From Acidovorax sp. (GTDB lineage: Bacteria; Pseudomonadota; Gammaproteobacteria; Burkholderiales; Burkholderiaceae_C), in the NCBI RefSeq assembly GCF_027492855.1, contig NZ_JAPUDY010000034.1, positions 1-64,000 on the forward strand: a DNA stretch of 64,000 nucleotides. Reading direction: 5' to 3'. A program made the translations under genes and the position numbers. A model generated the notes under the pieces. It was not told where the DNA came from, made no database searches, and saw only the letters and a program-made list of their open reading frames with translations. This document shows positions 46,605 through 50,284 of the stretch, in pieces (positions within the stretch are counted from its first letter, which is position 1; each line of letters starts with the position of its first letter).

Positions 46605-47873
46605 TCAATGGGCGTTGGCGGCCTCTTCAAAGCGGTCCACCTTGCGCAGCGACTGAAAAGCCAGCATCCAGCCGCCCACCACACCCAGCGTGCACAGGCC
46701 GCCCACCACGGCGGCGGGCACCACGCCCAGCCACGATGCGCTGGTGCCTGCGCGGAACTCACCCAACTCGTTGGACGAGCCGATGAACAACATGTTCACC
46801 GCGTTCACCCGCCCGCGCATGGTGTCGGGCGTGGAGAACTGCACCAGCGCCCCCCGGATGTACACGCTCACCATGTCGGCCGCGCCCGCCACCATCAGCG
46901 CTGCGAACGACAGCCAGAACCACGTGGAAAGCGCGAACACCAGATTGGCTGCGCCAAACACCGCCACCGCGATGAACATGGTGCGCCCCACGCGGCGGTT
47001 GAAGGGCCGCATGCTGAGGTACAGCCCCGCGCCCACCTCACCCACCGCCATGGCGCTGCGCAGGGCGCCCAGGCCCGCCGGGCCCACGTGCAGCACCTCT
47101 TGCGCATAGATGGGCAGCAAGGCCACCACGCCGCCGAGCAGCACGGCGAACAGGTCCAGCGAAATGGTGCCCAAAATGATGGGCCGCGAGCGGATGAACG
47201 CAATGCCCGCGCCAAAACGCTGGAACATGGTTCCCTGCGTTGGCCCCGGCGCGCTGGCATAAGCCACCACCACGCGCAAAAGCAGCACCACGCCCAGCAC
47301 AAAACACGCGCAGCACACGGCATAGGTCAGCTCGCCGCCGCCTAGCGCATACAGCAGCCCGCCCAGTAAAGGCCCGCCAATGCTCGCTGCCCGCATGAGC
47401 ATGCTGTTGGCGGCAATGGCCTGCGCCAACTGGCTGCGCGGCACGATCTGGGGCAACAGGCTTTGCATGGCCGGGCCTGAAAACGCGCGTGCGCAGCCAT
47501 ACAGCACCAGCACCGCGTAGATGCCCGCCACGCCGCTGGCCCCATGGCCCGCCAGCCACCACAGCAGCGCGCTGCACACGGCGCCCACCGACCAGGCGAG
47601 CGCCAGGATGCGCCTGCGGTCAAACCGGTCGATCAAATCACCCGCCGGGAGCAGCAGGCACAGCATGGGCAAAAACTGCGCCAGGCCCACATAGGCCAGC
47701 GCCATCGGCTCGCGCGTGAGGTCATACACCTGCCAGGCCACCACCACGGCCTGCACTTGGGTGGCGACCACGGCCACCACGCGGGCGATCAGAAAGGAGA
47801 GAAAGCCGGCATGGCGATAGACGCTGGCCGATTCGGCGCCAGGCGCCGCAGGAGAGGAATGGGGGGTGGTCAT
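46605..47873 (-). CDS. MFS exporter, MFS_3 (EntS-like) type
   Basis: 422 residues with about eleven to twelve transmembrane segments. Markers: [34 protein letters not shown] after TM2, and a conserved [17 protein letters not shown] stretch. The family contains siderophore and drug exporters. Substrate unknown. Divergent from the flagellin gene, with their 230 bp gap holding the flagellin promoter. Confidence 0.88.
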
Positions 47874-47978: not shown

Positions 47979-48005
47979 TCAGGTTTTGCGGTGACCTGCC
48001 GATAT
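47979..48005 (+). promoter_or_regulatory. Sigma-28 (FliA) promoter of the flagellin gene
   Basis: TCAGGTTT (47979-47986), 11 nt, GCCGATAT (47998-48005). The E. coli FliA consensus is TAAAGTTT-N11-GCCGATAA, so the match is 6/8 and 7/8 at exact spacing. It is 100 bp before the flagellin ATG, predicting a ~90 nt leader. Confidence 0.75.
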
Positions 48006-48104: not shown

Positions 48105-49808
48105 ATGGGGTTGACGATCAACACCAACGTGATGTCGCTGAATGCGCAACGCCGGCTTGGCGGGGCGCAGAACGACATGCTCACGACCGTGCAGCGCCTG
48201 TCGTCGGGCCTGCGCATCAACAGCGCCAAGGACGACGCGGCGGGTCTGGCCATTTCCGAACGCTTCACCGCCCAGATACGCGGGCTGAACCAGGCGGTAC
48301 GCAATGCCAACGACGGCCTGTCGCTCATGCAGACGGCCGAGGGTGCGTTGCAGAGCGTCACCGCCAGCCTGCAGCGCATCCGCGAGCTGGCCGTGCAGGC
48401 CGCCAACGACACCAACAGCGCGACCGACCGGCAGGCGATTCAGGCTGAAGTTTCGCGCCTGGCGCAAGAGATCGACCGCACCGGGATGGCCACGCAGTTC
48501 AACGGCATGGACGTGTTCGACCGCTCCAATGCCAGCGTGGTGGGCGACGAAAACCTGCTGGGCGTGTTTGACGGCCTGACCAGCGCAGGCAGTTGGCTGG
48601 AGAGCAGCGAAAACCTCATCCGCACCTACTATGGCCTGCAGGCCGACGGGGCGGCGTTGAACATTCGCTACACCGGCTACACCGATGGCGCGGGCGGCGT
48701 GGCCGCCTATGTGCAGGCCACGGGTTTTGATGGGCAGGGGCGGGGCACCAACCTCACGCTGCAGGTGGACATGGCCGACTTTGTGCCGCCCAACATGCCC
48801 AACGGCGGCACCGCGCCGTACTACAACGACCGCATCATCGGCCACGAGATGGTGCACGCGGTGATGGCGCGATCCACGAACTGGCAGGACATCACCAGCA
48901 ACCACCTGTGGTTTGCCGAGGGCACGGCCGAATTTATCCAGGGCGCAGACGAGCGGGTGCGCGCCGACGTGGCCAACCTGGGCGCGGCAGGTGTGGTGGC
49001 GGCCATCGGCGGGCCCAGCAATACCAGCGAGTTCTACTCGGCCAGCTATTCGGCGGTGCGCTACATGCACGACCGCATCAAGGCCGCGGGCGGCACGGGC
49101 ATCAAGGACGTGCTCACGTACATGAGCAACAACCCCGGCGCCACGCTCGATGCCGCCATCGGCGCAGCATCGGCAGGGGCCTTTACCAGCGCAGCCGACG
49201 TGCAGACACAGTTCGCGGCCAACGGCGCGGCCTTTATCGGCACGTTCGACTTCAACAATGCCGACACCGGCGCCATTGGCGGCGCCGACGTGGACAGCGG
49301 CATGGTGCGCGATGCCAAGGCCGCCATCCCCAACCAGGGCAGCCGCTCGGGCAAGGACGTGCTGCAGGGCTTCACCGAGACGTACGAGACCATTGCGTCC
49401 TCGGGCGGCGCGCTCAGCACCAAGGTGTTCCAGGTGGGCGCCAACGCCAACCAGACGCTGGAGACCCGCGTAGGTGCCATCGGCATCGGCGCCATGGGGC
49501 TGCGCAACACGCTGGATGTGACGGTGTCAGCCGCGCAGGCCATCGTGTCGGTGGACCGTGCGCTCGACTACGTGAACAGCCAGCGCGCCGTCATCGGCGC
49601 CCAGTCCTCGCGCCTGGAATCCGCCATCGCCAACCTGCAGGTCGGCAGCGAGAACCTCTCGGCCAGCCGCTCGCGCATCACCGATGCCGACTTTGCGGTG
49701 GAAACCGCATCCCTTGCCCGCCAGCAGATCCTGCAACAGGCGGGCAATGCGATGGTGGTGCAGGCCAACCAGATGCCCCAGGGCGTGCTGGCCTTGTTGC
49801 GCACCTGA
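48105..49808 (+). CDS. Flagellin with an embedded zinc metallopeptidase domain (flagellinolysin type)
   Basis: 567 residues from ATG 48105. N-terminal flagellin domains (1 to ~150) carry [18 protein letters not shown] and the [19 protein letters not shown] core; C-terminal domains (~450-567) end with the TLARQQ-like [20 protein letters not shown]. Between them, ~165-440 holds a peptidase domain with IGHEMVHAV (His247, Glu248, His251) and [12 protein letters not shown] (Glu272 as likely third zinc ligand), the gluzincin pattern of collagenase-like M9 peptidases. This is the architecture of flagellinolysins, in which the filament surface is proteolytic. It has its own sigma-28 promoter and stands apart from other flagellar genes. 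Confidence 0.93.
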
Positions 49809-49846: not shown

Positions 49847-50284
49847 CTATTGCTTGCTGCGCCGGTGCCGGTAATCCCACGGCGCCAGCGGGCGCCGCTG
49901 CGACCACAGGCCTGTGCCGTTGTTGCGCGCCTGCTGCTGTAGCGGCGCCAAGTGCGGGTGTGCGCTGGCGTAGGGTGTGTACACCCAGGCGAGCCCGGCG
50001 CGCACCTGGGCCGTGGCCACATCGGTGCCGCCGCAGCGCACATTGGCCACGGTGCGGCCATAGCTGTCCTTGTCCACCGGCTGCAAGGTGGTCTGCTGCC
50101 TGAAGCACAGCCGCGCCAGGTTCTGCCGCGACTTCTGGCCGAAGGCCTGGCGAGACTCGGGCGCATCGATGGCGGCCACGCGCACCTTGACCTGCTGGTA
50201 GGCGCCGGGCGTGCCGCAGCGCACGGTGAGGGTGTCGCCGTCGCTGATGGCGACGACCAGGCAGAGCAGGGAGGCAAGGGGCAC
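49847..50284 (-). CDS. Secreted SNase-like (thermonuclease) protein
   Basis: 145 residues from GTG 50284. A short hydrophobic N-terminus (PLASLLCLVVA) suggests secretion. SNase fold motifs: SDGDTLTVRC, VRVAAIDAPESRQAFG (catalytic Arg/Asp region) and DSYGRTVANV. Single-domain; it would degrade DNA or RNA in the periplasm or outside. Convergent with the flagellin gene. Confidence 0.85.
   Translation of the reverse strand: MPLASLLCLVVAISDGDTLTVRCGTPGAYQQVKVRVAAIDAPESRQAFGQKSRQNLARLCFRQQTTLQPVDKDSYGRTVANVRCGGTDVATAQVRAGLAWVYTPYASAHPHLAPLQQQARNNGTGLWSQRRPLAPWDYRHRRSKQ

Follow-up and report, generated by a model that had tools for sequence, protein, structure and literature searches.

Flagellinolysin gene and family

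The window, a 64,000-nucleotide stretch of an Acidovorax sp. contig, carries a flagellinolysin gene, i.e., a flagellin gene with a zinc metallopeptidase insert, on its forward strand (48105..49808). The reading frame starts with the ATG at 48105, its stop codon ends at 49808, and the product has 567 aa. The same frame is open farther 5' of the ATG, back to 47544. The start was set at 48105 because the relatives begin with the same residues.

The gene encodes three parts, all on the forward strand. The flagellin N-terminal (D0/D1) domain lies at 48117..48530 (residues 5-142) and matched positions 1-138 of the 139 in Flagellin_N (PF00669, 151.6 bits, cut-off 26.6), with the same span in the whole-genome search. 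The C-terminal (D1/D0) domain lies at 49548..49799 (residues 482-565) and matched positions 3-86 of the 86 in Flagellin_C (PF00700, 78.6 bits, cut-off 23). Both end domains are complete. They enclose a hypervariable-region insert with the metallopeptidase (48558..49457, residues 152-451), delimited by a cut in the alignment and matched by PF01752 below its cut-off. Within the insert, the zinc-binding and catalytic motif HEMVH (His247, Glu248, His251) is found at 48843..48857 (residues 247-251). It is followed by WFAEGTAEF at 48909..48935 (residues 269-277), which aligns with the collagenase WxxEGxAE and whose first glutamate, Glu272, is a putative third zinc ligand.

This architecture had been proposed in a sequence-only reading of the same DNA. 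Its coordinates and frame were right, both motifs and Glu272 were at the positions given, and the flagellin end domains were as complete as claimed. The family named there was also the right one: the NCBIfam equivalog model NF033876, "flagellinolysin", scored 410.2 bits over residues 112-496, twice its cut-off of 205. The model exceeded its cut-off in none of 14 named control genomes. Flagellinolysins have been known since 2017, also from Comamonadaceae. The window protein is an ordinary member of the family as already described (PMC5595980, PMC7643111), to which the window gene adds another member. We found no open-licence paper on flagellinolysin genes in Acidovorax, as judged by title and start of abstract. 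The words "Acidovorax" and "promoter" are absent from the main texts of PMC5595980 and PMC7643111, and in PMC7018530 the term flagellinolysin is confined to the reference list. A family member in Pseudoalteromonas tunicata is mentioned in PMC12153261.

A scan of genome contigs gave 123 stretches encoding a relative, of which the best 80 were kept. Among these 80, the seven closest (L005-L011) were from Acidovorax, with 87-91% identity over the whole length. Others were in Nitrosomonas, Massilia, Pseudomonas and Colwellia, and in some Firmicutes and Desulfobacterota. The flagellinolysin-like frame of a Sedimenticola MAG (L072, G488:C62:14973-15383) has an in-frame TAG in its flagellin N-terminal part, possibly marking a pseudogene or a sequence error.

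Conservation of the metallopeptidase insert

The window protein was aligned with the proteins of 53 of the 80 loci, chosen by length and spread, with partial and interrupted sequences excluded. His247, Glu248, His251, Trp269, Glu272, Gly273, Ala275 and Glu276 were invariant in all 54 sequences. Four of the five HEMVH positions were invariant, and position 250 was valine in 52 sequences and alanine in two. Such identity is far beyond chance, and the earlier claim that the zinc and catalytic residues (His247, Glu248, His251, Glu272) are intact was borne out. HExxH and WFxEGxxE were both present in all 15 other copies from the genus. Purifying selection acts on the insert (median dN/dS 0.246, 120 pairs among the 16 genus copies) about as strongly as on the N-terminal core (0.241); the value for the C-terminal core was 0.158.

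Two further features lie upstream of HExxH. The flagellinolysin of C. haemolyticum has a conserved calcium-binding Asp206 in that position, as described in PMC5595980. Asp222 of the window protein, aspartate in 48 of the 54 sequences, is a candidate counterpart by region only (Asp225 was left uncounted). A Gly-Gly pair (residues 234-235, 48804-48809), 12 residues before HExxH, was at least 90% conserved. PMC5595980 describes the family as lacking the double-glycine motif of collagenases, to which this pair may or may not be equivalent.

Peptidase_M9 (PF01752) scored 22.1 bits on the whole protein, in a match beginning at HExxH, and 23.7 bits (E 3.5e-5) on the insert alone. Since the curated Pfam gathering cut-off of 26 was not reached, membership in Peptidase M9 was rejected. 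When the 54 inserts, the window's included, were scanned alone, 46 matched Peptidase_M9, eight Peptidase_MA_2 and two Peptidase_M1 (E<=0.01). Flagellinolysins are set apart as MEROPS family M101, cited in PMC7643111.

A profile of the family insert, searched against 177,635 PDB sequences, gave nine matches at E<=1, all weak. The top three were a collagenase (7esi, E 0.041), ColT (4ar8, 0.17) and an M1 enzyme, glutamyl aminopeptidase (4kx7, 0.24). The remainder comprised two puromycin-sensitive aminopeptidases and four unrelated, non-gluzincin proteins, so that five of the nine were gluzincins. WxxEG was aligned in all three top matches and HExxH in two. At these weak E-values, the WFxEG glutamate of the insert falls on the WxxEG glutamate of the collagenases and the WLNEG glutamate of the aminopeptidase, the third zinc ligands of those enzymes. 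This agrees with the earlier proposal of Glu272 as third zinc ligand, and Glu272 would accordingly be expected to bind zinc in the window protein. A phmmer search with the single 289-residue insert found no PDB match at E<=1. Judged by the sequence profiles and the published family model, the insert probably has a gluzincin fold. Its likeness to Peptidase M9 extends to both HExxH and WxxEGxAE for the solved collagenase, and to WxxEGxAE for ColT as well, whereas the protein as a whole stays below the M9 cut-off. For the C. haemolyticum enzyme, cleavage of type I collagen could not be shown, as stated in PMC5595980.

Genomic site and sigma-28-like promoter

The gene is bordered on the left by an MFS transporter gene (46605..47873, reverse strand; PF05977, 131.6 bits) and on the right by an SNase-type nuclease gene (49847..50284, reverse strand; PF00565, 78.2 bits), apart from the flagellin genes of its own genome. 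Flagellinolysins exceeding the NF033876 cut-off were found in 16 of the 47 genus genomes. All 16 carriers have it at one and the same site, flanked by orthologues of this MFS gene and this nuclease gene. One carrier locus (L105, G026) is longer by ~2 kb, most of it separating the MFS gene from the promoter and containing short frames of no recognized type. In 17 other genomes of the genus, the same two genes adjoin, with ~96-323 bases between them, and the site is empty. The rest comprised G031, which has the two genes on different contigs, and 13 genomes without a close MFS orthologue.

A sigma-28 (FliA)-like promoter, TCAGGTTT-N11-GCCGATAT, is found upstream of the gene (47979..48005, forward strand), its first base 126 bases ahead of the ATG. 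It has 13 of the 16 letters of the sigma-28 consensus. None of the shuffled sequences was as good (0/200 and 0/300). Every one of the 16 occupied loci in the genus has a site of 12-15 letters, for which none of 300 shuffles of its own upstream region was as good; these loci are related, so their sites are not independent. As a control, 231-base pieces were drawn at random from the window (some upstream regions are longer); among 1,984 of them, none reached 13 letters and seven reached 12. The best score at the 17 empty sites was 10 of 16. A FliA gene is present in the window genome (283.9 bits, cut-off 189.6). A pattern built from the window site found nine places in the whole genome with at most two mismatches, versus seven for a reversed control. 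The weight of the promoter case is carried by the conservation across species. As predicted from the consensus match, a sigma-28 promoter probably drives the gene along with the late flagellar genes.

A scan of 250 upstream bases, with spacers of 10-12, also took in the ordinary flagellin genes of this genome and loci from beyond the genus. One of the two ordinary flagellin genes on contig C7 has a similar site (13/16), the other only one of 11/16 (14-15 of 200 shuffles as good). Among 13 loci outside the genus, no shuffle out of 200 was as good for L022, L017 and L047, one was for L035 and L038, and 11 were for L036; the other seven loci had at least 40. One carrier of the genus (L104, G017) has a ~200-base insertion with short complementary ends that separates the gene from its sigma-28-like site, which thereby stands at -327; expression may be altered in this strain.

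Probable inheritance and loss within the genus

An unrooted tree of the two flanking genes at 33 sites called for seven changes between presence and absence, five of them forced by well-supported branches. Only 2-3 of 500 label shuffles gave as few as seven changes, and presence is thus clustered on the flank tree. A tree of the flagellinolysins themselves, from the 16 carriers, shares its main groups with the flank tree; some inner branches differ, e.g., in the placement of L104/L106, L116 and L114.

Relics of the promoter side were searched for at 15 of the 17 empty sites (L097 and L098 lack the anchor motif). As reference, 13 of the 16 occupied sites were used (L102, L105 and L108 lack the anchor motif; L109 is short). 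Two empty sites retain sequence that matches the upstream regions of occupied sites outside the part on the MFS side. For L094 the score was 65 (highest shuffle 56, 0/200 as good), and for L085 it was 62, by a small margin (highest shuffle 60, 0/200). L085 has a decayed promoter, TGAGGTTT-N11-GTTGATGG, in register. At the other testable empty sites, upstream relics were not counted (L095 and L099, 9/200; L087, 15/200; the rest at least 23/200). A profile built from the upstream regions of 15 occupied loci (without L105, and with L109 short) matched 13 of the 17 empty sites at E<=0.0025, which is weak as relic evidence because much of it is the MFS side common to all.

The 17 empty sites yielded no convincing coding relic. 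Shuffles as good numbered 0 of 100 for L089, two of 100 for L091 and at least 12 of 100 for the other 15. L089 and L091 were not counted, because 17 tests were made and no gene end was visible. The fixed site, the forced changes and the upstream remnants at L085 and L094 together point to a gene that was inherited and repeatedly lost within the genus. The simplest reading is that it was probably ancestral to these lineages and then deleted in several. Since the tree is unrooted and no coding relic is convincing, the direction of change, i.e., loss, is an inference.

A recent lateral transfer of the entire gene, of the kind that the literature proposes for the family generally, would account for its patchy presence (16 of 47 genus genomes and, counting the window's genome, 20 of the 399 sampled from the order) and for the lack of coding relics. 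Homologous recombination replacing the locus with its flanks would also make the two trees agree, and the flank tree is unrooted. However, recent transfer fits poorly with a single site in all 16 carriers, with gene and flank trees that agree in their main groups and with the upstream sequence left, in decayed form, at L085 and L094. Moreover, the whole protein had no match among plasmid records at E<=1e-60, and the insert had none among phage records at E<=1e-5. We consider such acquisition unlikely, and inheritance with several losses is the reading followed below.

Companion flagellins and the filament

Whether a standard fliC exists elsewhere in the genome had been named as a check in the sequence-only reading. 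Two ordinary flagellin genes, divergently oriented, were found on contig C7 (L133, G000:C7:24900-29000). Their products have 496 aa each and are 93% identical. A divergent pair was also found in the other 14 carriers with a readable region. A weaker flagellin match on contig C33 was read as FlgL-like. The C7 flagellins share the filament core domains with the flagellinolysin, at 66-67% identity to its core, but they are much shorter and neither passes the NF033876 cut-off. Of the 16 carriers, 15 have one or more ordinary flagellins that could be read; the remaining one, G035, has a flagellin-like match at a contig end, fragmentary and unreadable there. Other flagellins in all 16 carriers, one of them fragmentary, fit a role of the flagellinolysin as a minor filament subunit. 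Another carrier (L122, G021:C24) has only a short frame of 202 aa for one member of its divergent flagellin pair, and may thus rely on the other member together with the flagellinolysin.

A wider search with the flagellin N-terminal domain covered 66 genome entries, namely 15 of the 19 other order-level carriers and 51 of the 80 relative loci. These were 62 distinct genomes, as four pairs of entries gave identical places (G260/G453, G438/G458, G140/G491, G400/G468). By place, score and match counts, and among the matches listed, 61 of the 62 genomes have a further flagellin besides the flagellinolysin and FlgL-like matches. The protein is therefore not known to make filaments alone. The exception was G205, an order-level genome in ~680 contigs with only the flagellinolysin and a FlgL-like match. 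The assembly is probably incomplete, but G205 is a candidate for having a filament composed solely of flagellinolysin.

The core of the window protein averages 86% identity to the other flagellinolysins of the genus. It is no closer to its own genome's flagellins than to those of other species, which makes co-assembly with ordinary flagellin plausible, though not visibly tuned to the own filament. Gene conversion of the core with the own flagellins was not supported (62-69% identity to the own flagellins in the 15 genomes with a usable copy, compared with averages of 63-66% for flagellins from other species).

The family was discovered in PMC5595980, where the flagellinolysin of C. haemolyticum was found in filaments beside ordinary flagellin. 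Its filaments are reported to cut protein, with activity that sedimented along with them, and the enzyme's activity was EDTA-sensitive and abolished in a general-base mutant. Like this first described member, FliA(H), the window protein has flagellin ends around a gluzincin-like insert, an HExxH with a downstream glutamate and ordinary flagellin as a companion. Unlike the window gene, the C. haemolyticum gene lies in a flagellar cluster, as reported in PMC7643111. The activity, filament location and surface exposure of the window protein would be those expected by analogy with the characterised relatives.

The protein of Hylemonella gracilis, HgrFlaMP, is a comamonadaceous member of the same family, and its gene likewise lies outside the flagellar cluster (PMC7643111). 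By published description, its HExxH is at residues 249-253, compared with 247-251 in the window protein. The gene neighbors differ: a NUDIX hydrolase and a MarR regulator are given for HgrFlaMP in PMC7643111, against the MFS transporter and SNase nuclease of the window. The same paper reports that the recombinant H. gracilis domain is proteolytically active and that it cuts a flagellin in the test tube.

Alternatively, the window protein could leave the cell by the flagellar route and work chiefly in free form, either as a secreted protease or as an insert set free from it, instead of forming part of the filament. Secretion and release are discussed in PMC7643111, where the recombinant domain shifted by 1-2 kDa, and the core forms a lineage of its own, as its higher identity to other flagellinolysins than to the own flagellins indicates. 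Against this stand both filament domains, complete and under purifying selection, and the C. haemolyticum protein, which was found in the filament with activity that sedimented alongside (PMC5595980). We regard a mainly free protease as very unlikely. That the insert is enzymatically dead and only alters the filament surface (adhesion, antigenicity, drag) is extremely improbable: many other hypervariable-region domains are known, most of them non-enzymes (PMC5595980), and activity of the window protein is a prediction from sequence, but none of the 54 aligned sequences departs from the others at the four metal and catalytic positions, both motifs are present in every copy from the genus, and purifying selection acts on the insert.

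Proposed role and significance

The observations made here are family membership, intact residues, a promoter-like site, purifying selection, a conserved site and companion flagellins. We hold it highly probable that the window protein is a flagellinolysin serving as a minor filament subunit, with a zinc protease insert, sigma-28-driven expression, one inherited site and several losses. In this proposal, the gene would be transcribed with the late flagellar genes from its sigma-28 promoter, despite its separate locus. The D0/D1 ends would direct export by the flagellar secretion system, and the protein would be built into the filament among ordinary flagellins encoded elsewhere. The insert would project from the filament surface and act as a gluzincin-type zinc metallopeptidase, cutting nearby proteins. 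Zinc would be held by His247, His251 and Glu272, with Glu248 as the general base. Within the genus, the gene would have been inherited at one site and lost several times.

The gene itself is an ordinary family member. What is new here is modest: a promoter-like site, one constant position in the genome and a history that probably includes repeated loss. A bolder scenario is that of a sigma-28-wired protease filament directed against other bacteria, e.g., against the flagellins of competitors. Ancestral to the genus, it would be costly or context-dependent and would have been repeatedly deleted, leaving a dead promoter at some sites. We offer it as speculation that is quite unlikely to be right.

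Flagellinolysins make the flagellum a large enzyme carrier, and the text of PMC7643111 calls the biological function of the family unclear. The genus is a natural experiment in this respect, with close relatives that have the gene at one fixed site or the same site empty. The promoter-like site suggests when the flagellinolysin gene is expressed. Together, the occupied and empty relatives and the promoter-like site make the role of the protein testable by strain comparison and gene removal.
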